Of a stretch of DNA of 32,324 nucleotides, positions 214 through 12,055 are shown piece by piece (positions within the stretch are counted from its first letter, which is position 1; each line of letters begins with the position of its first letter). The translations under genes and the position numbers were made by a program. The stretch spans positions 1 to 32,324 of the forward strand of contig JAGAQJ010000009.1 of the NCBI GenBank assembly GCA_017622845.1, written 5' to 3'. Source of the stretch: Lachnospiraceae bacterium. Lineage in GTDB: Bacteria; Bacillota; Clostridia; Lachnospirales; Lachnospiraceae. A model generated the notes under the pieces. That model saw only the letters and a list, made by a program, of their open reading frames with translations. It was not told where the DNA came from and did no database searches.

Positions 214-1389
214 TTATTTCTCCAATAGTCTCTTATATAAATTATCTACACATACAGCACCAAACGGAGCTGTAATCAAAATAGATAACACTGCAACGGT
301 TAAAACCATATTTCCACAGTCTAATCCCATTGACAATGGTATTGCACCAATAGCTGCTTGCACTGTCGCTTTGGGAGTGTACGCTACCATACAAAATAAT
401 TTTTCTTTTTTTGATAAATCTGTTCTTACTAATGATAATGCCACACCAATCATTCTAAATAGTAATGCCCCAATAATAAGCAATACAGCAAATATTCCTG
501 CTGATTCGACATATTTTAAATCAACAGTTGCACCAACTAACACAAATAGAAATACTTCTGCACCAAGCCATAATTTATTATATTTTGCAGATAATCGTAC
601 AGCTAACACGCCATATTTTTGTTTCAGCATGATACCCATACTCATAATAGCAAGTAGACCAGAAATAGGAATATATCCTTCCAATCTATTTTGTACTTCC
701 AAAAGCAAGAAAGAAATACTAAGTATTATCAGTATTTTCACTGAATCTCTCATATGATTTTTTTTGAAGAATAAAACTAATAACATTCCTACACCACTTC
801 CGAGAATAACTCCTAAGACAATAGATATTGGAATCTGGATAAAACTTATTATAGACATTTCACCTGTAGCTGCTAATGCAGTAAAAGCTGTAAATACCAC
901 GATAACAAAAACATCATCTACCGAAGCACCTGCTAAAATCAGTTGTGGAATACTTTTGTTTTTCCCATAACCTTCATCAATCAATCGAATCATTCTTGGT
1001 ACAACAACAGCAGGAGATACCGCGGCAATTACACTCCCCATAATAGCCGCATCTAACACAGATACTGTAAGCAAAATTGGTGCCAAAATAACAGTCCCTA
1101 ATATTTCTACACAAGCAGGAACAAAACACATAAGAACTGCTGGTCTGCCGACTTTCTTTAAATCTGAAATATCAAGAGACAGCCCTGCTCTTGTAAGAAT
1201 TATTACTAAGGCTATCTGCCTCAAATCTCCCGAAATCATAAGTATTGATTCATCAATTAAATTCAGTGCATAGGGACTAAGTATAATCCCCACAATAATC
1301 ATTCCAAGTAAACTTGGTAATCTGAGTTTTGAAAAAATCCAGCCGATTAACAACCCTAATAACAAAATAATTGCAATACTTGTTAACAT
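214..1389 (-). CDS. Cation:proton antiporter, CPA/Kef-NhaP type, under a fluoride riboswitch
   Basis: A 391-residue polytopic membrane protein with about 12 hydrophobic segments and no soluble nucleotide-binding tail. The segment AVSPAVVVP (about 123-131) and the paired aspartates in ASVDDV (D158-D159) are the ion-binding signature of monovalent cation/proton antiporters; a DD pair is usually linked to electrogenic exchange. It is expected to swap Na+ or another monovalent ion for protons across the cytoplasmic membrane. The ATG follows AGAGGG at 4 nt spacing. The leader carries a fluoride aptamer fused to an intrinsic terminator, so expression should rise when fluoride is present. Antiporters of this class are a known, though less common, partner of fluoride riboswitches beside CrcB/Fluc and CLC-F. 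Whether it moves fluoride or only repairs the pH/ion damage is not decided by sequence. Confidence 0.9.
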   Translation of the reverse strand: MLTSIAIILLLGLLIGWIFSKLRLPSLLGMIIVGIILSPYALNLIDESILMISGDLRQIALVIILTRAGLSLDISDLKKVGRPAVLMCFVPACVEILGTVILAPILLTVSVLDAAIMGSVIAAVSPAVVVPRMIRLIDEGYGKNKSIPQLILAGASVDDVFVIVVFTAFTALAATGEMSIISFIQIPISIVLGVILGSGVGMLLVLFFKKNHMRDSVKILIILSISFLLLEVQNRLEGYIPISGLLAIMSMGIMLKQKYGVLAVRLSAKYNKLWLGAEVFLFVLVGATVDLKYVESAGIFAVLLIIGALLFRMIGVALSLVRTDLSKKEKLFCMVAYTPKATVQAAIGAIPLSMGLDCGNMVLTVAVLSILITAPFGAVCVDNLYKRLLEK

Positions 1390-1413: not shown

Positions 1414-1460
1414 AAAAAAGCTGATAATTTCTGCGTAATAATTTCGCAGAAGTCATCAGC
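1414..1460 (-). terminator. Intrinsic terminator acting as the riboswitch expression platform
   Basis: Read on the minus strand, GCTGAT...TTCTGCG pairs with CGCAGAA...ATCAGC around an AT-rich loop and is followed directly by six T. The 5' arm is also the 3' strand of the fluoride aptamer (GCTGATGACTTCTGCG), so ligand-bound aptamer and terminator stem cannot form together. That is the usual design for transcriptional ON control. Confidence 0.88.
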
Positions 1461-1507
1461 ATTAAATGCGGTTTAGGGATTAATACCCATGGGAGAACCT
1501 CATTCCC
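1445..1507 (-). promoter_or_regulatory. Fluoride riboswitch (crcB motif)
   Basis: The minus-strand leader reads GGGAATGAGG, TTCTCCC, a short hairpin, AAACCGC, then GCTGATGACTTCTGCG. This follows the crcB-motif layout in order and spacing: a GGnnATGnGG start, a closing CCC, an AAACnGC strand and a GCTGATGnC(C/T)nCT strand that forms the pseudoknot with the 5' segment. The predicted transcription start lies about 4 nt upstream of the first G, and the 3' end is shared with an intrinsic terminator. Recognised by eye from the published consensus; a covariance-model hit would settle it. Confidence 0.87.
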
Positions 1508-1517
1508 AATGAAATAT

Positions 1518-1546
1518 ACTATACCATAAGTCAAAATGAAATACAA
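1518..1546 (-). promoter_or_regulatory. Sigma-A promoter of the riboswitch-antiporter unit
   Basis: On the minus strand TTGTAT (1546-1541) and TATAGT (1523-1518) are separated by exactly 17 bp. Transcription would begin near 1511, just ahead of the aptamer's first paired base. Confidence 0.7.
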
Positions 1547-1598
1547 CAACAAATCCCGATTGTGATTTGATTTAAAATGCTTTATTTATAAATAACGG

Positions 1599-1627
1599 TT
1601 GACAAATTTCCTTATCATTTCTATAAT
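1599..1627 (+). promoter_or_regulatory. Sigma-A promoter of the tetR-flavodoxin operon
   Basis: Consensus TTGACA (1599-1604) and consensus TATAAT (1622-1627) are separated by 17 bp, as strong a match as this promoter class allows. It runs divergently from the antiporter promoter. The operator at 1624-1646 overlaps the -10 box and the start site. Confidence 0.9.
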
Positions 1628-1646
1628 TAAACTCAAAGTTTAATTA
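1624..1646. promoter_or_regulatory. Inverted-repeat operator, probable TetR autoregulation site
   Basis: TAATTAAACT (1624-1633), a 3-bp spacer, and AGTTTAATTA (1637-1646) form a perfect 10-3-10 palindrome. It covers the end of the -10 box and the initiation region of the downstream tetR gene, the classic place for steric repression. That the product of the next gene binds it is inference from position and symmetry. Confidence 0.82.
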
Positions 1647-1659
1647 AATGGAGGTAATA

Positions 1660-2298
1660 ATGGGACGGAGAAAAAAAGAACCCAAGAGTGTACACAGAGA
1701 AAACATTGCTTCTGCTGCGTCCGTGTTGTTTATGGAAAAAGGTATCACAGCGACTTCTATGGACGATATAGCGAAAGCAGCCGGATATAGCAAAGCAACC
1801 TTATATGTGTACTTCGAGAACAAAGAAGAAATCATTGGTCTTTTAGTTCTTGATAGTATGAAAAAACTTTATGATTATATCGCTTCTGCATTAGAGAAAC
1901 AGGAAACAACAAAAGCAAGATATGATTTCATTTGTTTTGGATTAGTCCGGTATCAAGAAGAATTTCCTTTTTATTTTAAAATGGTGTTGGATAAAATCAA
2001 CATTGACTTTGAAAACCATAATTATTTGCCCGAAGAAAAAGAAACTTATCAGATAGGAGAAGAAATAAACAGAAAACTAAAAGATTTTTTAATATCCGGC
2101 ATGGAAAAAGGCGATTTGCGTGATGACCTAAAAATTATGCCTACTATTTTTAACTTCTGGGGTATGTTGTCAGGACTTATCCAACTTGCCACAAATAAAG
2201 AGGACTATATACAAATTGCAATGGATTTATCCAAAAAACAGTTCTTAAAGTATGGTTTTCATATGCTATACGATTCGATTGCAAATAAGGAGGAATGA
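1660..2298 (+). CDS. TetR/AcrR family transcriptional regulator
   Basis: A 212-residue protein with the TetR DNA-binding region at the N-terminus: RENIASAASVLFMEKG leading into SMDDIAKAAGYSKATLYVYF, whose last part is the recognition helix. The rest is a helical ligand-binding and dimerisation domain without a recognisable ligand signature. An ATG at 1648 lies inside the ribosome site itself; GGAGG (1650-1654) is correctly placed for the ATG at 1660, so I use that start. Its promoter carries a 10-3-10 palindrome, which suggests autorepression. The oxidoreductase gene starts 2 bp after its stop and is very likely co-transcribed and its regulatory target. Confidence 0.92.
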   Translation: MGRRKKEPKSVHRENIASAASVLFMEKGITATSMDDIAKAAGYSKATLYVYFENKEEIIGLLVLDSMKKLYDYIASALEKQETTKARYDFICFGLVRYQEEFPFYFKMVLDKINIDFENHNYLPEEKETYQIGEEINRKLKDFLISGMEKGDLRDDLKIMPTIFNFWGMLSGLIQLATNKEDYIQIAMDLSKKQFLKYGFHMLYDSIANKEE

Positions 2299-2300
2299 TT

Positions 2301-2870
2301 ATGAGTGAAAAATCTGTACTTGCAATTTTAGGCAGTCCGCATATAAGTGGAACGACAGCCACCATGCTAGATTGTGCTATCCAAAGCGCCGAAAAAAAGG
2401 GATATACGGTAATAACAGTCAACCTATATGAGAAAAATCTTTCATTTTGTACAGGCTGTCGAGCTTGCATGAATACGAAAGTGTGTATACAAAAAGATGA
2501 TATACAGGAAATCACAGATTATTTACATAAATGTCAAACAATCATTCTTGCTGCTCCAGTTTATTGGGCGAATGTACCTGCTCCTGTTAAAAACTTATTT
2601 GACCGGCTATTAGGAACAGCTATGGAAGAAACAAGCACTTTTCCAAAGCCACGTCTAAAAGGTAAAAAATATATGCTTTTGACTTCTTGCAACACCCCCG
2701 CCCCCTTTTCATGGATATTCGGACAAAGCAGTGGGGCAATCCGCAATATGGATGAATTTTTCAAAACGGCAGGCATGAAGCCAATCGGAAAAATTGTTTG
2801 TGCAAATGCGGCAAATAAAAAAGGACTTCCAAAGTCGCTGATTAAAAAAATTGAGAGGTGTCTGAAATGA
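2301..2870 (+). CDS. Flavodoxin-fold NAD(P)H-dependent oxidoreductase (FMN reductase-like)
   Basis: About 189 residues of flavodoxin-like fold. The N-terminal GSPHISGTTATML is the FMN phosphate-binding loop, CTGCRACMNTKVC is the cysteine cluster common in iron-sulfur-flavoprotein-like and FMN-reductase relatives, and APVYWANVPAPVKNLFDR is the conserved segment after beta-strand 3. It likely reduces quinones, nitro compounds or similar electrophiles with NAD(P)H in the cytosol. The start at 2301 has AAGGAGG at about 7 nt; the ATG at 2295 is too close to it. Its coupling to a TetR repressor fits an inducible detoxification reductase; the inducer is unknown. Confidence 0.87.
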   Translation: MSEKSVLAILGSPHISGTTATMLDCAIQSAEKKGYTVITVNLYEKNLSFCTGCRACMNTKVCIQKDDIQEITDYLHKCQTIILAAPVYWANVPAPVKNLFDRLLGTAMEETSTFPKPRLKGKKYMLLTSCNTPAPFSWIFGQSSGAIRNMDEFFKTAGMKPIGKIVCANAANKKGLPKSLIKKIERCLK

Positions 2871-2935
2871 AAATGATCAAACTGTCCTCTTCATAACTTA
2901 TAGGATATTATACCATAGATTGTTTACTTCGGAAA

Positions 2936-3172
2936 TTACTTTCCTCTAAAAATGGGCAGAAGAAAACCTCCAAATCTTTGGGAGACTTGGAGGCTTGATT
3001 CCGACCATTTATCTTTTAAATAAACTTTGTTATACAGAACTCTAATTATGAACACTGCATGATTCTGCATATCATAATAATAGAAAATGTTGTAGTTATC
3101 AAAGCGTGTCATTCGCAGACCAACACTTCGTAAAAGGTCATCATCTACTAGTGGAATACAGCTTAACTGCAT
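2936..3172 (-). pseudogene. RelE/ParE toxin C-terminal fragment
   Basis: The frame encodes IPLVDDDLLRSVGLRMTRF, then DNYNIFYYYDMQNHAVFIIR and VLYNK, which matches the C-terminal half of RelE/ParE-superfamily toxins (conserved DNY-IFY and RVLY strands). The first half of a toxin (about 45-50 residues) is missing and no antitoxin gene is adjacent. The last 20 or so residues are read through a terminator hairpin and are not toxin-like. The upstream sequence is instead the end of an acetyltransferase in another frame, so this is debris rather than a working gene. Confidence 0.6.
2960..2993 (-). terminator. Intrinsic terminator for the minus-strand cluster
   Basis: CCTCCAA (minus-strand arm 2993-2987) pairs with TTGGAGG (2973-2967) and is followed on the minus strand by TTTTCTT. 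It lies downstream of the NUDIX gene and would end transcription of the 3.2-6.2 kb cluster. Part of the loop can form an alternative CTCCC/GGGAG-like pairing. Confidence 0.6.
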
Positions 3173-3242
3173 TGCTGTTCCAATCAGTCACATGTAAAAC
3201 AATGCCATCATAACCTTGCTCTTTTATATGATGCATTCCCAT
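3141..3242 (-). pseudogene. GNAT acetyltransferase C-terminal fragment
   Basis: Thirty-three codons starting right after the NUDIX stop read MGMHHIKEQGYDGIVLHVT, then NSNAVKLYS, followed by a stop. The pattern LHV...N..A..LY is the conserved C-terminal acetyl-CoA-binding strand and helix of GNAT N-acetyltransferases. The usual -GF end is replaced by the junction with the RelE/ParE fragment. At 33 residues it cannot be a functional enzyme. Confidence 0.5.
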
Positions 3243-3245
3243 GGC

Positions 3246-3740
3246 TTACTCTGGCATTTCCACAAACTCCACTTTTTCACCATCTGCTATTCCACCATAC
3301 ATTTTATGATTATACTGCCCTACATCCAGATAATGATTTATAACATATTGTGCAGTAAAGGGCATTTCAAAATTTTTTAATTCTGTCAATGAAATCCATT
3401 TTAGCTGCCCTTCATTTGATGTTAAATGCATATTATTTCCATTGGGAAATCTTGCAAAGAAATAATAATTTTGTCTTATCTCCTCATTTCTTCTACGCAA
3501 TGTAACATAACGCAATTCCATATCGCATATCATATCCTGTGTAATAGATAATTCTTCTTCTAATTCTCGCAGCACACAAGCGCCTGCGTCATTTAATTCA
3601 TTTTCTTCAAAATGCCCTCCTGCAGAACCAATCCACACATTATTGACTACTCTTGAACCCTGTCTATACAGCAAAAGCATCTTATCTTCACAAAGCAGAT
3701 AAATAGATGTCATATTTCTTAATCTTCCAATGTTCCCCAT
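3246..3740 (-). CDS. NUDIX hydrolase
   Basis: A 164-residue single-domain NUDIX protein. The NUDIX box is visible as GGHFEENELND followed by ACVLRELEEEL: it supplies the Gly, the Glu and the REL-EE helix that bind the catalytic Mg2+, with a two-residue-longer loop than the textbook spacing. The likely role is hydrolysis of a nucleoside diphosphate derivative such as an oxidised nucleotide or nucleotide sugar; the substrate is not readable. A TTG at 3753-3755 could extend it, but GGGAGAAG sits inside that extension, ideally placed for the ATG at 3740. The downstream 100 bases hold gene debris. Confidence 0.88.
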   Translation of the reverse strand: MGNIGRLRNMTSIYLLCEDKMLLLYRQGSRVVNNVWIGSAGGHFEENELNDAGACVLRELEEELSITQDMICDMELRYVTLRRRNEEIRQNYYFFARFPNGNNMHLTSNEGQLKWISLTELKNFEMPFTAQYVINHYLDVGQYNHKMYGGIADGEKVEFVEMPE

Positions 3741-3951
3741 AAATACTTCTCCCAAAAAAATCGTAACTACAAATCAACTCAATTTTTTATATGTTCCCCA
3801 TCCACATATACTTCTTTTCAAAAATCCCATCATGATACGCCGATTGCAAAACAGTCATTTTATTCCATGTATTTTTTGCATAATTTCCAAAATACGCCCA
3901 ATTTTATTAATGTTCCTTGTCACTACCCAAACAAACCGGAAATTGGATCAT

Positions 3952-4440
3952 TCATTTCCATACCCTATACATACATGCACCATCATCACAATGGTTTATA
4001 AGCCAACTATAGTCTTTCGGGAAAAGATAAAAATCGTCCATTGATATGGGATATTCAAATAAGACTTTTTTTATCTCATCTAATCTACCTTCATATATCC
4101 AGCCACCATCGACAATAAGATAATAGTAAGCCATTAAATTTCTTTCCGGAACAAGGTCATCAATGCTGCTTATATAGTTCTTCCAGTCCCTCCAATTTGT
4201 TTTTATACTATCCGTTCTATTCAATTCCTTCCGAAATCGTGTCCACATATAGGCAAGCTGAATCGTAGGGTATTTCTGATAGTCGCAAAATGAATAGTAT
4301 AATTTATGAATCACTTCTTGATAACGATTCTTTGCCACTTCATAGAACTTTGTCCGATCAATGCCATATTCTTTTATTATATTTTCAATTTCGTTACGCA
4401 TTTCATAGCGTACTTTCTTACTTTCCGTTTGATTAATCAT
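3952..4440 (-). CDS. Hypothetical protein, about 162 residues
   Basis: I do not recognise a family. It is a soluble, charged, tyrosine- and tryptophan-rich protein without a signal peptide. The C-terminal part (YPISMDDFYLFPKDYSWLIN, then a segment ending CMYRVWK) resembles small cytosolic proteins of SMI1/immunity-like style, but this is impression only. I start at the ATG at 4440, preceded by GGGGTGA; a GTG at 4500 would add 20 residues but lacks a spaced ribosome site. It sits in a co-directional AT-rich cluster. The 211 bases between it and the NUDIX start hold no gene I can support. Confidence 0.65.
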   Translation of the reverse strand: MINQTESKKVRYEMRNEIENIIKEYGIDRTKFYEVAKNRYQEVIHKLYYSFCDYQKYPTIQLAYMWTRFRKELNRTDSIKTNWRDWKNYISSIDDLVPERNLMAYYYLIVDGGWIYEGRLDEIKKVLFEYPISMDDFYLFPKDYSWLINHCDDGACMYRVWK

Positions 4441-4534
4441 ATATGTCACCCCGGAAACTCCAATTATCAATTGTGCAAAAGTCCTGCGTTTATTAGCCAC
4501 CCTTTATCTTTCATTAAACGAATTTGTCTAATTA

Positions 4535-5530
4535 TTATTTATAAAGTTTTTCCCTGACTTTTCTCATCTCCTTCCAAACATTATCTCCATAGTTGCTTAC
4601 TATAACAGAGATCATTCCATTGTTTGGATTATATTCAGAAATAAAACTTACTCCCGGGTCACAACCTTGAAAATATGCATAATCCCTGCCATTTGGATTA
4701 TCAATAAGCCATACACCATAGCCATAGTACCCTTCTTCTGCATCAACACCGTCTCCACTTTGTTTACTAAGCATTTTAGCAACTAATTCCTTTGAAATTA
4801 ATTTATTTTCCAACAATCCTCTCCAGAAATTGATGATGTCCTTTACAGTAATAAAAGCGCCGCCTGCACCAGTCCCTTTTACATCTACAGAAAATATATT
4901 TGTACGAAAATCATCTGTATCAGCACAATAAATATAATTATTGGCACATTTTGGCGGCAGTCTGTCTAATTCATAATAACCTGTTGCGTTCATATCACAT
5001 ACATCAAATACATTTGTTTTAAGGTATTGGTCAAAATACATTCCTGTTACTTTTTCAATTATCATAGCAAGTAATACATAACCCGAATTATTATATTGAA
5101 ACTTTTCGCCTTTTGGATACATCATAGGCTTGTTTATAAATAACGGAAGCAAATCGCTATTATGTCTGATTTTATAATTCGGATAATCTACCCATAATTC
5201 CTCATACTCATCCATAACACTCTCATCAAAATAATCAGGCACTCCTGAAGTATGATTCAATAATTGTTCTACTGTTACATCAACATCAATGCTATGTAGA
5301 TCAATATCAAGAAGGCTTCCCAAAGTATCATCAAATTTGATTTTTCCTTGTTCAACTAATTGTAATATACCTACTGCAACAAAAACTTTTCCTGCTGATG
5401 CACTGGCAAATTTTGTTTCTAATGAATTTGGAACCTGATTTGCTAAGTCAGCAAAACCAGTCACATTTTCACACAAAACTATATTATCTTGAACAATATA
5501 TACATTTCCTCTAAAATTACTGTCAAGCAT
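4535..5530 (-). CDS. Serine hydrolase of the class C beta-lactamase/esterase superfamily
   Basis: A 331-residue protein with the SxxK catalytic motif S45-A-G-K48, HTSG at 93-96 and the second motif Y146-N-N148; the C-terminal HTG/KTG-like element is probably in the GTGAGG or later glycine-rich segments. No signal peptide or lipobox is visible, so it appears cytosolic, unlike true secreted beta-lactamases. It more likely acts on a peptide or ester. An upstream ATG (5545) is part of the GGAGG ribosome site, which positions the ATG at 5530 as the start. It follows the HAD gene by about 33 bp in the same direction. Confidence 0.85.
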   Translation of the reverse strand: MLDSNFRGNVYIVQDNIVLCENVTGFADLANQVPNSLETKFASASAGKVFVAVGILQLVEQGKIKFDDTLGSLLDIDLHSIDVDVTVEQLLNHTSGVPDYFDESVMDEYEELWVDYPNYKIRHNSDLLPLFINKPMMYPKGEKFQYNNSGYVLLAMIIEKVTGMYFDQYLKTNVFDVCDMNATGYYELDRLPPKCANNYIYCADTDDFRTNIFSVDVKGTGAGGAFITVKDIINFWRGLLENKLISKELVAKMLSKQSGDGVDAEEGYYGYGVWLIDNPNGRDYAYFQGCDPGVSFISEYNPNNGMISVIVSNYGDNVWKEMRKVREKLYK

Positions 5531-5563
5531 CTCTTTTACCTCCATAATCTAACTTTTCCCGTT

Positions 5564-6181
5564 TTACAAAATATTACAAATTTCAGTCAGGTTATTCACT
5601 ATATAATCCGCTCTTTCAATTTCCTTCGTAATGTTCCAATATTGACCATATCCCTGCTTCATCCATATAGTATGAATACCTAATAAATTGGCAGGAACAA
5701 TATCATTATCAATCCTATCTCCAATCATAATTGCATTATTAGCTTTACAATTACTTCTTTTTAAAGCAATTTCAAATATTCTTCTGTCCGGTTTTGAAAC
5801 ACCCTCCTCCGCAGAAGCGACAACCAACTCAATATAATGTAATATCCCATGCTGCTCTAATCGTTTCCTTGTCCCAAGTGATTGGTTCGCAATAATACCT
5901 ATCTTATATTTCTTACTTAAATATTCAAGACATTTAGATGTATCACTATATAAAATTTCATCTTCCTTATGCCACTCTGTCAGTTCTACCCCAAGTGCCT
6001 TAGCTATTTCTAAATCTCCTTTTTTATTCTGCTTATATAATTCCATTGCACCATTATATACTTTTTCATATGTTGTGCCAGCCAAATCAGCTATTTCCTT
6101 TAACCGATGCTCGTATGCTATGTGTTCATCTACTAATGTTGAACCAACATCAAAAAATAACCATTTTACTTCTTCAAACAT
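5564..6181 (-). CDS. HAD-superfamily hydrolase
   Basis: A 205-residue protein with the four HAD motifs: FFDVGSTL (nucleophile D11, with G replacing the second Asp, a known variation), IIANQS (motif II), SKPDRRIF (motif III lysine) and IGDRIDND (motif IV acidic pair). A helical cap lies between motifs I and II (about 20-90), as in the phosphoglycolate phosphatase/haloacid dehalogenase-like C1 group. It should dephosphorylate a small cytosolic metabolite. AAGGAG precedes the ATG at 5 nt. The start region overlaps the end of an orphan reading frame. Confidence 0.88.
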   Translation of the reverse strand: MFEEVKWLFFDVGSTLVDEHIAYEHRLKEIADLAGTTYEKVYNGAMELYKQNKKGDLEIAKALGVELTEWHKEDEILYSDTSKCLEYLSKKYKIGIIANQSLGTRKRLEQHGILHYIELVVASAEEGVSKPDRRIFEIALKRSNCKANNAIMIGDRIDNDIVPANLLGIHTIWMKQGYGQYWNITKEIERADYIVNNLTEICNIL

Positions 6182-7316: not shown

Positions 7317-7365
7317 AAAATCTGCTGACACATAAGCATTGCTTCTATGTGCCAGCAGATTTTTT
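7317..7365. terminator. Intrinsic terminator after the multicopper oxidase gene
   Basis: AAAATCTGCTG pairs with CAGCAGATTTT, with an inner ACATA/TATGT stem. The plus strand ends in T6 and the minus strand in a weaker TTTTG. It lies 11 bp beyond the oxidase stop and before the next promoter, so it separates the two transcription units. Confidence 0.75.
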
Positions 7366-7375
7366 ATATCATTTC

Positions 7376-10300
7376 CTAGCTCTTTTTACAGATGCGTTTC
7401 CACATTCTATGGCAGGAATTTTTACATTTGCAGCCGATGCCCTGTTTCATTACCCGGAAAATTCCCCACATACCTGATTCTACATCCCATTTCAGGCTGC
7501 CGGAACGATAGAGGTAATCGCCAGGGCAGGAAGCTCCTCCTTTTATCTCCATATTGAAGATGTTTCCGATACTGATTCCGCCCTGAAGGGGAATGATTCT
7601 GGAAAACGGATTATCCGGCTGTTCTCTCCATTCATGCCCATGAAGCATAAGTCCTACATTCCGTGGTTTATCCGCCGGCATCATCGTGCGGAAAATAACA
7701 CGTTCTCCCGTGTAAGCTTTAAACAGCGGTGTCGCAGGATCGCCGTGGATGCGGCTGTTAAAAATTCTGGAAATCTGTCTGTCACGCATCAGTCTGTTGG
7801 CAAAGCGCTCCGAGCGATAGTTATAACCCTTTTCTCCTGTATCCTCTGCATCAATGGCTTCTCCGTCATCTTCCCGTATCGTTTTTACCAGTTCTCCTTT
7901 GCAGTCGAGCATACGGATTCCATTCTGAATCATCAGCACACATTCCCGGAAACTTTCTACGCCGGGAGCAGTGATAACGGCTTCTTCCTCATGGAGCGCT
8001 TTGCATAAAGAAAAATTGCGGTACCATGTGGCTCCGGCCGGCTCAATGATGATGGCGCCGAACAGTCCGTGGTATCTGTGATTGCGCATATCTCCAAAGG
8101 AGTGAATAATGCAGGGACCATATTCCTGATCTGCGTACCACAGGTATTTCTTGCTTTCTCCCACGCCGACAGTCTGCTCCCTGTTGTTGTAACCCACATT
8201 GATTCCTGAATCATTGATAGGGTCGTAGTTCAGAAATTGTGGATTGAGAGATACCCGCATGGACGGCTGATGCCTGAAATCAAGGGGAACTCTTGGATAG
8301 TCAAAGTATTCCACGGGCTGCGCCGGATTGAAAAGATTATGGAGCGTCACTTCAATCCACTCCCCGACATTTGCCCTGAGAATCAGAGGCTTCGGCTTAT
8401 AATCTCCGCATAGCGCTTTGTCAGCATCCTCGAGCGGAACAAACAGCAGTCCGTCCGGGTCATGGTCACCATAACGATTATAAGGGATATTCTGCTGTAT
8501 TGCAGCTACTTGATATTTACGGACAACTGCATCTTTTCCGGGACAAGGCGGAAGCGGCAGAATTTGATCCTTGCCCTTACACAAAGGTTTCAGATGCTTT
8601 ACAGGGTGACCATGCGCCCGCAGGATTCCCCAAAGTCCCAGCCACGTATCATCGATTCCGCCGAAGTAGTAAAGGTAATCTCCCGGCGCGTACTTCTTTG
8701 TAATCCGAAGATTAAAGGCTTCGGAGATACCGATTGTCTGTGAAGCAGCTTTGGGCGAATGGGGATCGGCAATCTCCCGCTGCCATGACATTCCGGTCAG
8801 GTTAAATGAATGTTGTTCTTCGTGGGCGCCGTCCAGCAACCGTATCACAATCTCATCTCCCGGATAAGTTTCCAAGATCGGAGTAGCCGGATCCTTGTGC
8901 ACCAGAGAGCTGAAAATATAAGCCGGGTCTTCATGGTTTTTCAAACGCTCCCGCATCGGCTCGCAGCGGTAGTTAATTCCCATCACTCCGGGGTCATCAT
9001 GAGAACCGGGAACTGTCGGCGGATTCAGCGCATTACCGTCTTTATCAAAAAGAAATGCAAAATCATGGACAAACAGAGCAAATTCCCTGAAAGAGGTGCC
9101 ATCTTTTCGCCGAATCACTGCCTGCGTGCCCCGCCGAAGCTCTCTGCCGCTGCGCGGACTGTGAAAAGTAGCTCCGGCTTCTTCTATAATCATTGCGCCG
9201 AATACACCGTGCATCTGATGGGAATTGGCAAACAGATGGTCATGGAAAAAGACTGTGCGAAGCTCTGTATTGGCAAAAAACCGCTCAATCAATGTTTCAT
9301 ATTTTCTTGCTCCTGCAATGTTGTTCCAGCCGTTTGCAGCACCGTCAGAAACAATCGTATCGAATTTGACCAGATGCACGTGGAAGCCCACAATATCTGT
9401 CAGGGTTTCCATCTGGAAGGGGCTTTCCTCAAGGTACTCCGGGAGCAGATTTGTAAAGCGGATTTCAATGCAGTCTCCGGCATTGGCACGGATGACAAGA
9501 GGCTCTACACGAATTTTCTGTTCCTCAACTTTGCGGATATAGGAATCAAGACCTCCATGATACTCCAAATCCTCCTTCAGGACAAAAAAGCGTCCCTGGG
9601 GATCATTCCAGCCATAACTGTTGTAGGTGATTTTAGCCTGAACAACGGCAATCTCAAATACTTTTACCTCCGTCTCCTCCTGACAACAGTAAGAATGTGG
9701 GCAGGGGTTTTTGTCTGTAAGGCAAGGGCAGGTTTCGGAATAGAGCGCACCCGGAACAAAATTTTTTACAAAGTTTTTCCGTTCCAAGTCGGTCGGTCTG
9801 ATTTTATTGCTGCCGTCAGGACGCAGAATGCCAAGGGGAGGCTGCAGGGGACGCTCTCCAAAGTTCCCGTTGATAAAACCGGGATAGCCGGGATGAGCGT
9901 CATCTTTTGCCGGAGGAGCAATTCTGTCTTTTAGGGGAATAAGCGGCGGAATGACTGTACCATCCGGAAGTTTTCCGTTTCCGTCCTCCAGCCGGTCATG
10001 GATTCTCCACAAGGTCCACATTCCCTCATGAAAATGAGGATAGAGATGACAGTGAAAAATCACATCACCTATTGTTTCTGTCAGACTTCCGGCGCCGTGG
10101 AGAATATCCAGTGTATAACACTCCTGAGGTCCTAATGTGATGGAGTCCAAAATGGTAGAAACCGGATTTTCTCCTTCCAGACGCCACTGGTGGTTGTGAA
10201 GGTGGAAAACGTGCGTTTCCTTAATACCGCCGTGAATCAGACGGATTTTGGACGGGTCGCCGACATAGGCACGCAGGATGGGAGGAGCCGGATCGCCGTA

Positions 10301-11074
10301 GACCCATGAACTCATGGAAATGTCTTCTCCGCTGTCTGCATGGTCAGCGGTCAGAGGAAGCCGGTTGCGCATAGGCTCCGAACGATAACTGATTCCTGTA
10401 GTGGAAGATGGCAGACCTGTGTGAGGATCGACAGGCGGTTCGCCGTCTTTGTTCCTGATTTCCAATTCATCATGGAAGAATACTGCATATTCGCGGAAAG
10501 CAGGTCTGCCGGGAGTATAAATGTCAGCAAAAAGTCCGCTTTCCAATTCATCGCCTGTCTGAGGATCAAGCCATCTCGACTGCGGTGCTTCTACAATAAT
10601 GGCACCGAAAAGCCCATGAATATTCGTGCCTTCTTCACTGCTTCTGGTATCGCCCATATCGTGAAACAGGTAAACTCCTTCCCTGACTGCATACCATGTG
10701 TAGGTAATCTTGTTTTTTGTCGTAGTGTCACGGTTAAATCCTACATTTGCTCCGTCGGAAGTCTGTACATCATAGCCCATTCCCAAAACATGAATGGAAA
10801 GAGAACGCTTCAGTGAGTGGGAAAAAGATATGACAATTCTTTCTCCTACATTTGCCCGGATGACCAAAGGCTTTACCTCCTCATAAGGCTGAGGGACTTC
10901 CAGTGAAAAATTGCGCAGAGCGCCTTCCCGGATACGTGCTGCATCTTTTTTCAGCACATACAAAAGTCCGTTGGGATCATGATCTCCGTATTTGTTATAA
11001 ACAATCGGGATTTCAATCGCCTCAATTTCATAACACCGGGTCTGATTGGGGCATGGATAATTACAAAGCTCCAT
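7376..11074 (-). CDS. MnxG-like giant multicopper oxidase, six cupredoxin domains
   Basis: A 1232-residue protein without signal peptide or membrane segment, built from three copies of a two-cupredoxin unit. Each copy opens with the same signature: YNKYGDHDP (26-34), YNSYGWNDP (484-492), YNRYGDHDP (865-873). A complete copper set is present: HVFHLHNH (H288, H291, H293), HCHLYPHFHEGM (H341, C342, H343, H347, M352), HVH (H565, H567) and HDH (H611, H613). That provides the type 1 ligands His-Cys-His-Met and all eight His of the trinuclear centre, so it should be an active oxidase reducing O2 to water. The other domain pairs are degenerate and probably structural. Cys-rich linkers (CPCLTDKNPC; C-terminal CKCKNSC) are notable. 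Size and six-domain plan match MnxG, the Bacillus spore manganese oxidase; metal specificity here is not proven. GGAGGT fixes the ATG at 11074, overlapping the upstream gene's stop. GC content is visibly higher than in flanking genes. Confidence 0.9.
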   Translation of the reverse strand: MELCNYPCPNQTRCYEIEAIEIPIVYNKYGDHDPNGLLYVLKKDAARIREGALRNFSLEVPQPYEEVKPLVIRANVGERIVISFSHSLKRSLSIHVLGMGYDVQTSDGANVGFNRDTTTKNKITYTWYAVREGVYLFHDMGDTRSSEEGTNIHGLFGAIIVEAPQSRWLDPQTGDELESGLFADIYTPGRPAFREYAVFFHDELEIRNKDGEPPVDPHTGLPSSTTGISYRSEPMRNRLPLTADHADSGEDISMSSWVYGDPAPPILRAYVGDPSKIRLIHGGIKETHVFHLHNHQWRLEGENPVSTILDSITLGPQECYTLDILHGAGSLTETIGDVIFHCHLYPHFHEGMWTLWRIHDRLEDGNGKLPDGTVIPPLIPLKDRIAPPAKDDAHPGYPGFINGNFGERPLQPPLGILRPDGSNKIRPTDLERKNFVKNFVPGALYSETCPCLTDKNPCPHSYCCQEETEVKVFEIAVVQAKITYNSYGWNDPQGRFFVLKEDLEYHGGLDSYIRKVEEQKIRVEPLVIRANAGDCIEIRFTNLLPEYLEESPFQMETLTDIVGFHVHLVKFDTIVSDGAANGWNNIAGARKYETLIERFFANTELRTVFFHDHLFANSHQMHGVFGAMIIEEAGATFHSPRSGRELRRGTQAVIRRKDGTSFREFALFVHDFAFLFDKDGNALNPPTVPGSHDDPGVMGINYRCEPMRERLKNHEDPAYIFSSLVHKDPATPILETYPGDEIVIRLLDGAHEEQHSFNLTGMSWQREIADPHSPKAASQTIGISEAFNLRITKKYAPGDYLYYFGGIDDTWLGLWGILRAHGHPVKHLKPLCKGKDQILPLPPCPGKDAVVRKYQVAAIQQNIPYNRYGDHDPDGLLFVPLEDADKALCGDYKPKPLILRANVGEWIEVTLHNLFNPAQPVEYFDYPRVPLDFRHQPSMRVSLNPQFLNYDPINDSGINVGYNNREQTVGVGESKKYLWYADQEYGPCIIHSFGDMRNHRYHGLFGAIIIEPAGATWYRNFSLCKALHEEEAVITAPGVESFRECVLMIQNGIRMLDCKGELVKTIREDDGEAIDAEDTGEKGYNYRSERFANRLMRDRQISRIFNSRIHGDPATPLFKAYTGERVIFRTMMPADKPRNVGLMLHGHEWREQPDNPFSRIIPLQGGISIGNIFNMEIKGGASCPGDYLYRSGSLKWDVESGMWGIFRVMKQGIGCKCKNSCHRMWKRICKKS

Positions 11075-11085
11075 CTGCACACCTC

Positions 11086-11985
11086 CTAGCGGGTCTGACC
11101 GGTTTCGAGCACACGGATATAATGATTGGCCTCCCGAAGGACGTGGTCTGCCAGCAGCGGCAGAATGATGGACGCAATCTGGCAGTCAAGAATCCCTTTT
11201 GTTCCTGCCGTTTTAAAGTCACGGTATTTCAATGTTTCTTCCAATGATTTTTCTGTCAGGGCGTTTGCACGGTAATCCTGTCGGCGGGCTGTTTCCAGCA
11301 GGCGGGCGTAATCTTTGGAAAAATTATCTGCCGTTTCAATCAACTGCGCCTCTGACGGATCAAGAAGACCGCGGATGAACCATGCATGTTCCATCATAAT
11401 CTGATTCCAAAAAGATTCCGTTTCATAAAAGCTCTGATAAGATATGTGCCGCTTTGACATGATTTGTTCTATAATGTCACGGTACATCTTTGCTTCACGC
11501 ATAATATGCTCAACGAGAAGCGGATAATTTGCGGTATACAGCTCTCCGTCTTTCATTTTACATAGAATGCGTTCTTTAAAGCGAATCAGTCCGTCCAACA
11601 ATTTGTGTGCCCGTTCATTGATTTGCTGAACCTGTCGATTCAGGGAGCAGCTTTCTTCATTGCTGCCGCAGCTTAAAGAGCACGTCATTTTGGAAATTTT
11701 GCTGTCAATGGGAATGCCGCTTAAGGATTCCGTTCTTTGCTCAGCAGGAATTGTAAATTCTGTCACCAGCTCGTTTGATTTGAGAACAGATTCGTGGATA
11801 TTGCCCTCTGCAATTTTAAGGGTGTCCCGCAAAAGGTCCTCAAAGTTCTTTCGGAAATATTGTGCTTCCTCAATCCAGTCCTTTTCACAACATGGAAAGC
11901 CTGCCTCCAGAAAAAGAGCATGTTCTTTCATAATTCTTGCAAAAAACAGATGCGTTTCTATTGAAAGAGTGGCATAATCTTTCAT
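11086..11985 (-). CDS. Tandem DUF2935 protein, putative metal-binding partner of the oxidase
   Basis: A 299-residue helical protein made of two DUF2935 domains (about 8-180 and 188-295). Each has a first helix ending IM-EH (E21-H22; E199-H200) and a later helix PLL--H--REA--Y (H160/E164; H281/E285). These paired Glu-His and His-x3-Glu sites suggest a metal site in each half; structural databases list DUF2935 among helical-bundle Bacillus metalloproteins. A Cys-rich stretch (CSLSCGSNEESC, about 102-113) links the halves. Its stop codon is embedded in the ribosome site of the multicopper oxidase, so the two are translated from one mRNA and probably act together on the same metal. AAAGG precedes the ATG. 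Confidence 0.85.
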   Translation of the reverse strand: MKDYATLSIETHLFFARIMKEHALFLEAGFPCCEKDWIEEAQYFRKNFEDLLRDTLKIAEGNIHESVLKSNELVTEFTIPAEQRTESLSGIPIDSKISKMTCSLSCGSNEESCSLNRQVQQINERAHKLLDGLIRFKERILCKMKDGELYTANYPLLVEHIMREAKMYRDIIEQIMSKRHISYQSFYETESFWNQIMMEHAWFIRGLLDPSEAQLIETADNFSKDYARLLETARRQDYRANALTEKSLEETLKYRDFKTAGTKGILDCQIASIILPLLADHVLREANHYIRVLETGQTR

Positions 11986-12055
11986 AATTCATCATACCTT
12001 TTAGTTTAGTCTCTTTATAATATATGTAAAAGTGGGACTGGGGGTGCACAGCATA

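Follow-up and report, generated by a model that had tools for sequence, protein, structure and literature searches.

The window analysed here, a 32,324-nucleotide stretch of DNA from a Lachnospiraceae bacterium, carries a gene for a protein with tandem DUF2935 domains and, directly downstream of it, a gene for a six-domain multicopper oxidase resembling MnxG, the manganese oxidase of Bacillus spores. The pair is probably a late mother-cell sporulation operon, whose oxidase would sit on the spore surface and be active in air, with the DUF2935 protein as its metal-binding partner in place of MnxE and MnxF. This reading draws on the copper ligands of the oxidase, on the pairing of the two genes among relatives, on a sigma-K-type promoter ahead of them and on their confinement to genomes with spoIVA within the family sampled. 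The literature searched yielded no report of the DUF2935 pairing or the promoter; MnxG-like proteins of clostridia were already known.

The oxidase is homologous to MnxG over its full length

Across residues 15-1213 the oxidase matches the MnxG chain of PDB entry 9bxa (the MnxEFG complex of Bacillus sp. PL-12 spores) with 1016 bits, a homology that spans all six domains. Its scores against the Pfam families Cu-oxidase_3 and Cu-oxidase_2 are 58.4 and 22.8 bits, respectively. A structure model built with 25 sequences is weak (mean predicted local distance difference test score, pLDDT, 64.9); its top Foldseek match was again 9bxa_A (query TM-score, TMq, 0.88; 42% identity), followed by clotting factors and ceruloplasmin (TMq 0.52-0.53 for ceruloplasmin). 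A first-pass annotation, made from the sequence by a model, had named MnxG as the nearest architecture, and MnxG is indeed the closest relative by both routes. From this homology the oxidase probably works like MnxG. It misses the cut-off of the NCBIfam equivalog NF041487 (302.7 bits against 3100); that model, 1894 positions in length, therefore represents an MnxG type longer than that of Bacillus with its 1200 residues.

Relatives were gathered into a set of 84 loci, comprising 80 kept of 132 relatives from one genome-contig scan and four, the window's own among them, from a second search of 60 genomes of the genus and order. Sixty-six of the 84, including the window, have a single oxidase frame of at least 1150 aa and could be aligned; with one Priestia plasmid copy and the oxidase of locus L105 the alignment holds 68 sequences (the window, 65 relatives and these two). 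Residue numbers follow the 1234-aa frame that opens at GTG 11080.

The type 1 (T1) copper ligands His290, Cys344, His349 and Met354 and eight histidines of the trinuclear site, roles which we take from the general multicopper oxidase motif, are each kept in at least 67 of the 68 sequences. Within the domain 2 motif IFHCHLYPHFHEGMW the five ligands in order are found in 67, 68, 68, 68 and 68 sequences. The complete copper set claimed in the first pass is thus present and conserved, and its T1 and trinuclear sites lie in domains 2 and 3. Counterpart motifs in domains 4 and 6 are without the T1 cysteine, so a full copper site exists in one repeat only. The same T1 and trinuclear motifs occur in MnxG of 9bxa. 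A T1 histidine seemed to be missing there, with alanine in the column of His349; the entry is titled 'Mnx H340A complex', and we discarded this apparent difference.

Cys-rich linkers, also noticed in the first pass, are present (residues 449-466 and at the C-terminus) but differ in length and sequence among relatives. Neither protein of the window starts with a hydrophobic, signal peptide-like segment.

The oxidase gene is linked to DUF2935

The protein encoded upstream of the oxidase scores 222.6 bits against the Pfam family DUF2935 (PF11155; gathering threshold 24.4) in two stretches, i.e. tandem domains. It has the fold of 3d19 and 3dby, DUF2935 metalloproteins of Bacillus cereus with 28-33% and 17-22% identity to it, respectively, and entry titles that state no function. 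The Glu-His and His-x3-Glu pairs expected from the sequence (E21 H22, H160 E164, E199 H200 and H281 E285) proved invariant, each being found in 57/57 sequences. Furthermore, the junction of the two genes, read directly, agrees with the translational coupling proposed earlier: the DUF2935 stop codon sits within the AGGAGG of the oxidase, and because of this overlap ATG 11074 is the likely oxidase start.

The earlier claim of a pairing with conserved adjacency holds for most loci. DUF2935 lies in tandem directly upstream of the oxidase in 52 of the 84, nearby in another arrangement in 9, and is absent from the locus in 23; for seven of these 23 the upstream DNA is shorter than 700 nt. Locus L027 counts as one of the 52 on the strength of a match over its first 24 DUF2935 residues; at 1082-1192 an in-frame internal deletion has fused DUF2935 helix 1 to the final helix, the fusion point being a similar EH/DH stretch. 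Whole genomes could be searched for 19 of the 23 loci without DUF2935 (all except L032, L050, L065 and L083), and 17 of these 19 hold a DUF2935 gene elsewhere. In L047, one of the remaining two, a DUF2935 remnant adjoins the oxidase (E 9e-5). The pairwise distances of the oxidases and those of the DUF2935 proteins are correlated (48 loci, r 0.79, with 0/999 permutations as high), for which common descent alone would suffice.

A sigma-K-type promoter precedes the pair

Upstream of the DUF2935 gene the window has CACC-N16-CATATATTA (12046-12018). Aligned upstream regions share the consensus CATATAnTAtA, some 40-45 nt ahead of the DUF2935 start, and farther upstream, beyond a 16 bp spacer, an ACC box. 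In Clostridioides difficile, sigma-E and sigma-K share a common -10 element and differ at -35, which is ATA for the former and AC for the latter, according to the portion of PMC3789822 available to us. The window site and those of its relatives combine the -35 AC and the -10 CATANNNTA at the right spacing.

Fifty of the tandem loci have 120 nt or more of sequence ahead of the DUF2935 start, and in these we counted exact CATANNNTA between -60 and -25. It was found in 44 of the 50, whereas mononucleotide shuffles would give 1.0 and the other mechanically called open reading frames (ORFs) of those loci have it in 6/345. Of these 44, 25 have the -35 AC (slid control 0.13) and 10 the full mACm (control 0.05). 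The pattern of a sigma-K-type promoter is conserved over genera. A sigma-E promoter was rejected, as ATA occurs in 4/44 and is not enriched over the slid control (0.17). A sigma-A promoter is likewise disfavoured; the window has one weak sigma-70-like match (9/12), which overlaps the promoter region.

Genes outside the tandem arrangement were scored against the 99th percentile of 418 control ORFs. Upstream regions could be scored for the oxidase in 21 of the 32 loci without tandem DUF2935; in the others (L012, L014, L029, L032, L049, L050, L060, L064, L069, L079 and L083) the region was cut off, the start was not reached, or it is the leader of a lost or nearby DUF2935 gene. Eleven of the 21 oxidase regions and 20 of 36 DUF2935 regions exceeded this bar, consistent with sigma-K-like promoters of their own.

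Two further sequence features were seen in the leaders. AAAGGTATG recurs in the operon 5' leader ahead of the DUF2935 start, at about 11990-12005 (-) in the window, and many leaders contain TATGC, which by eye is complementary to GCATA of the -10 box.

Both genes are confined to spoIVA genomes in the family sample

Presence of SpoIVA and DUF2935 was counted at E 0.001 in 397 genomes of the family, taken evenly out of a larger group and including the window's own. SpoIVA was matched in 258 of them (252 above the model cut-off), the window's host among them. All 24 genomes with the oxidase have spoIVA (Fisher p 2e-5, kinship ignored), as do all 65 with DUF2935 (p 3e-14, kinship again ignored; 64/65 above cut-off). 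In a second sample, 50 of the 80 genomes from the genome-contig scan, some of whose assemblies are shared with the family set, SpoIVA was matched in 47, 44 of them above the cut-off. A role on the spore had been floated in the first pass, together with the advice to look for a sporulation promoter; the sigma-K-type promoter was found, and the co-occurrence with spoIVA lends this role further support.

The oxidase itself is patchy, being present in 3/60 genomes of the genus and order (own included) and 24/397 of the family, where one of the 24 (G323, L105) is of the MnxEF type. Its frame is broken or partial in 9 of the 24 (in one case at a contig end), and it therefore appears dispensable in some lineages. 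Broken or fragmentary frames were noted in G078, G087, G152, G251, G295, G405, G408 and G448, some beside a DUF2935 match. They look as if the system had been lost repeatedly, with assembly errors possible for some. A separate record, L065, is labelled as the archaeon Methanosarcina sp. Ant1; its oxidase shows 66% identity, and DUF2935 is missing from that locus. This assembly is likely contaminated.

Selection, base composition and phylogeny

Purifying selection acts on both genes. The ratio of nonsynonymous to synonymous substitution rates (dN/dS, NG86 method) relative to L001 comes to about 0.056 (oxidase) and 0.065 (DUF2935), with dS to more distant copies near or at saturation.

The first pass had taken a higher G+C content (GC) as a hint of transfer, a suggestion which was not supported. 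Oxidase GC tracks that of the flanks (r 0.94) and lies above it in 58/60 loci, by 4.8 points on average (standard deviation 2.5). In the window the value is 0.486 against 0.395 for both flanks and 0.411 for the right flank, and the offset of 9 points exceeds the mean of 4.8. The GC at third codon positions (GC3) is 0.49, within the range of 0.39-0.50 of the nine right-hand genes tested; two left-hand genes have 0.22-0.23.

In a tree of 37 oxidase rows the window and 32 relatives, including L066, lie on one side of a starred branch (100/99), apart from two MnxEF-type rows opposite. Host families are for the most part, though not everywhere, reflected in the tree: rows of Lachnospiraceae and of Oscillospiraceae mostly cohere, and those of Clostridiaceae and Peptostreptococcaceae are mixed. 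L067 (Clostridiaceae) sits beside L069 (Peptostreptococcaceae), and transfer between these two families is therefore likely. L088 and L105 are joined by long branches, so that their grouping may be false. A recent transfer into the window's lineage is disfavoured by the GC correlation, the GC3 value and the coherence of the Lachnospiraceae rows.

Comparison with known systems

The window's pair differs from MnxEFG in its DUF2935 gene, in its clostridial hosts and in having no MnxE or MnxF found beside the oxidase. A Priestia megaterium plasmid operon (L088) has genes that match the MnxE and MnxF chains of 9bxa, and CATANNNTA occurs there likewise, at -46 of the MnxE-like gene. When these two Priestia proteins were searched by tblastn (E 1e-3) against the window and the loci then in the set, except L088 and L089, the MnxE-like one matched only L105 and the MnxF-like one matched none, a search that very divergent small proteins could escape. 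The absence of such partners beside the window oxidase, as claimed in the first pass, was borne out within this search. In an mnx operon mnxE and mnxF lie next to mnxG; this arrangement was looked for at the window locus and not found, and we therefore do not file the window's system as MnxEFG.

The one locus matched, L105 (G323, 1477-5655 (-)), is a classic mnxEFG-like operon in a single-contig genome from the same host family as the window. Directly upstream of its oxidase, which belongs to the same enzyme superfamily as the window's (44% identity), are an MnxE-like gene (45% over 75 aa to that of Priestia) and an MnxF-sized gene, and its genome has DUF2935 more than 1 Mb from the oxidase. 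Both types, the classic one and the one with DUF2935, therefore occur in the family.

A 2013 phylogeny (PMC3600357) lists MnxG-like proteins from Clostridium perfringens D and C. methylpentosum DSM 5476, and in the portion available to us names neither a DUF2935 partner nor a promoter. The C. methylpentosum strain corresponds to L066, whose oxidase has 1231 aa and is adjoined by a divergent DUF2935 gene. No report of MnxG together with DUF2935 was found in the open-licence PMC literature, nor one of a DUF2935 partner or promoter of an MnxG-like oxidase in the same collection, represented mostly by titles and the beginnings of abstracts; the accessible parts of PMC12111023, PMC12574912 and PMC7476324 contain nothing on such a system. 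For DUF2935 by itself, open-licence PMC full text yielded a single unrelated paper, on Fusarium.

Redox enzymes are known from other spores. CotA of Bacillus subtilis is a spore-coat multicopper oxidase under mother-cell control that has three domains and not six, and its first entry (5zlj) ranks 49th in the structure search with the window oxidase model. The peroxide enzymes of the C. difficile spore remove peroxide and do not use O2. This anaerobe's spore carries the manganese catalases CotCB and CotD and the protein CotE under sigma-K, as described in the accessible portion of PMC3789822; their protein families are unrelated to the window pair.

A model for the oxidase-DUF2935 operon

In the model that we favour, sigma-K RNA polymerase would transcribe the DUF2935 and oxidase genes together in the mother cell, as the conserved promoter suggests. 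Both proteins would fold in the mother-cell cytoplasm and then be deposited on the forming spore. Judging by the ligands and by MnxG, a metal ion would donate single electrons to the T1 copper, Mn(II) being the likeliest donor; from there they would reach the trinuclear site (domains 2 and 3) and reduce O2 to water. The window's host is presumed to be an anaerobe from its family, Lachnospiraceae, and since such cells are presumed anaerobes, this O2 chemistry would run only once the spore has been shed into air. The linkage of the two genes suggests that DUF2935 may bind the substrate metal or copper, taking the place that the MnxE/MnxF ring has in the Bacillus complex. The first-pass proposal is thus partly supported: MnxG kinship, the pairing with DUF2935 and a possible role on the spore are backed by the results, its metal module would be in keeping with them, and its hint of transfer is dropped.

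Several observations weigh against this model. In Bacillus the activity requires mnxEFG, according to the portion of PMC5622069 available to us, and MnxE and MnxF were not found beside the window oxidase. The exact -10 element is missing in 6/50 tandem loci, each with a one-base variant by eye, and TTGACA-like sigma-A -35 boxes occur in 4/44, about twice the control mean of 0.04 and at the control maximum of 0.09. Ten of the 21 oxidase and 16 of the 36 DUF2935 upstream regions fall below the 99th percentile, and where DUF2935 is nearby and not in tandem only 2/9 regions exceed it. The Fisher tests leave kinship out of account; SpoIVA was not matched in L036, L063 and L065 (3/50), and three more matches are partial and below the cut-off. 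The best sigma-K match in the host reaches 277 bits against a model cut-off of 298.65, below which Bacillus subtilis falls also. Finally, several loci keep the oxidase with no adjacent DUF2935, and the broken frames in the family also count against an indispensable function.

One alternative is that the enzyme is a spore-coat oxidase of the CotA kind, acting on an organic substrate in pigment formation or protein cross-linking and not on Mn(II), with DUF2935 helping to load copper. The promoter and ligand evidence would be identical and none of it fixes the substrate; MnxE and MnxF, needed for activity in Bacillus (PMC5622069, as above), were not found beside the oxidase, and the variable Cys-rich linkers could cross-link. 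However, the nearest solved relative is the manganese oxidase MnxG and not CotA, and the DUF2935 partner bears a conserved metal-type site. We consider this explanation unlikely.

Alternatively, DUF2935 may be merely a co-regulated sporulation protein with no direct part in the oxidase reaction. Among the 397 family genomes it was matched in 42 of the 373 without the oxidase, all of them with SpoIVA. The sigma-K-like promoters of their own in 20 of 36 DUF2935 copies away from an oxidase, and the loss of the neighbouring DUF2935 at some oxidase loci, point the same way. Against this, the oxidase is seldom found in a genome without DUF2935 (23/24 oxidase genomes of the family have it, some as remnants or far from the oxidase, as do 17 of the 19 searched above), and proximity is preserved across several orientations. 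We would give this explanation a minor share of the probability.

A vegetative oxidase that detoxifies copper or oxygen, like CueO, is improbable. The enzyme class would fit, as would the weak sigma-70-like match, but the proteins have no signal peptide-like or membrane segment, the sigma-K-type promoter is conserved over genera, presence is confined to spoIVA genomes in the family set, and no copper-resistance family was found among 26 neighbouring ORFs scanned with Pfam. That the oxidase is recently acquired, functionally idle cargo is very improbable: its patchy distribution, its 9-point GC offset in the window and the signs of transfer in the mixed Clostridiaceae and Peptostreptococcaceae rows are outweighed by a dN/dS of about 0.06, GC that tracks the host, GC3 inside the range of the right-hand genes and coherent Lachnospiraceae rows.

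Returning to the sporulation operon with a DUF2935 partner, a bolder extension can be put forward as a tentative and, taken whole, rather doubtful proposal. The pair might represent a second kind of MnxG system in spore-forming gut anaerobes, in which DUF2935 replaces MnxE/MnxF and which would have no use in vegetative cells. Once exposed to air, the spore would at first contact consume O2 and lay down a shell of manganese (or iron) oxide, an oxygen-triggered mineral armour that would have been lost repeatedly where survival outside the host may be needless.

The purpose of Mn(II) oxidation by Bacillus spores is a long-standing open question. If a related oxidase is kept by purifying selection, and confined to spoIVA genomes of the family sampled, in organisms presumed not to use O2 for growth, its role should lie in dormancy or dispersal and not in metabolism. 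If our reading is right, presumed anaerobes carry an O2-using enzyme only in their dormant form, which is testable in cultured species, among them the gut bacterium Velocimicrobium porci (L008), a carrier of the pair; a role would be suggested for the DUF2935 family, and gut spores would be a possible source of manganese or iron oxides outside the host.

Features of the window and its surroundings

Table 1. Positions of the operon's features in the window, listed in the direction of transcription
Feature	Position	Strand	Remarks
sigma-K-type -35 element CACC	12043..12046	-	16 bp from -10
sigma-K-type -10 element CATATATTA	12018..12026	-	C at -41 from DUF2935 ATG
Tandem DUF2935 helical metalloprotein, 299 aa	11086..11985	-	Domain matches 11107-11427 and 11470-11964
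AGGAGG, oxidase ribosome site	11082..11087	-	Overlaps DUF2935 stop TAG at 11088-11086
Six-domain multicopper oxidase, MnxG-like, 1232 aa	7376..11074	-	Likely ATG 11074; listed ORF 7376-11080 opens at GTG 11080, 1234 aa
Domain 2 motif THVFHLHNHQW	10184..10216	-	T1 His290, trinuclear His293 and His295; 68/68 each
Domain 2 motif IFHCHLYPHFHEGMW	10016..10060	-	Trinuclear His343 and His345; T1 Cys344, His349 and Met354
Cys-rich interdomain linker	9683..9736	-	Varies between relatives
Domain 3 motif GFHVHLVK	9365..9388	-	Trinuclear His567 and His569; 68/68 each
Domain 3 motif VFFHDHLFANSHQMHG	9206..9253	-	Trinuclear His613 and His615; 68/68 each
Strong terminator-like hairpin	7317..7363	-	3' of oxidase stop

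The hairpin beyond the oxidase stop folds with -27.7 kcal/mol (z -5.4) and was not listed by a simple terminator scan of the window. The 26 neighbouring ORFs include a carbamoyltransferase, a MATE transporter, an AraC regulator, luxS and others, with no evident link to the pair. In one other genome (G289, contig C20; loci L094/L129) spoIVA immediately precedes the DUF2935-oxidase pair (SpoIVA 37177-38646; DUF2935 match from 38732). Elsewhere in the window a fluoride riboswitch (RF01734, 48.3 bits) at 1440-1516 (-) is located just upstream of a Na+/H+ exchanger-type gene (214-1389 (-)).

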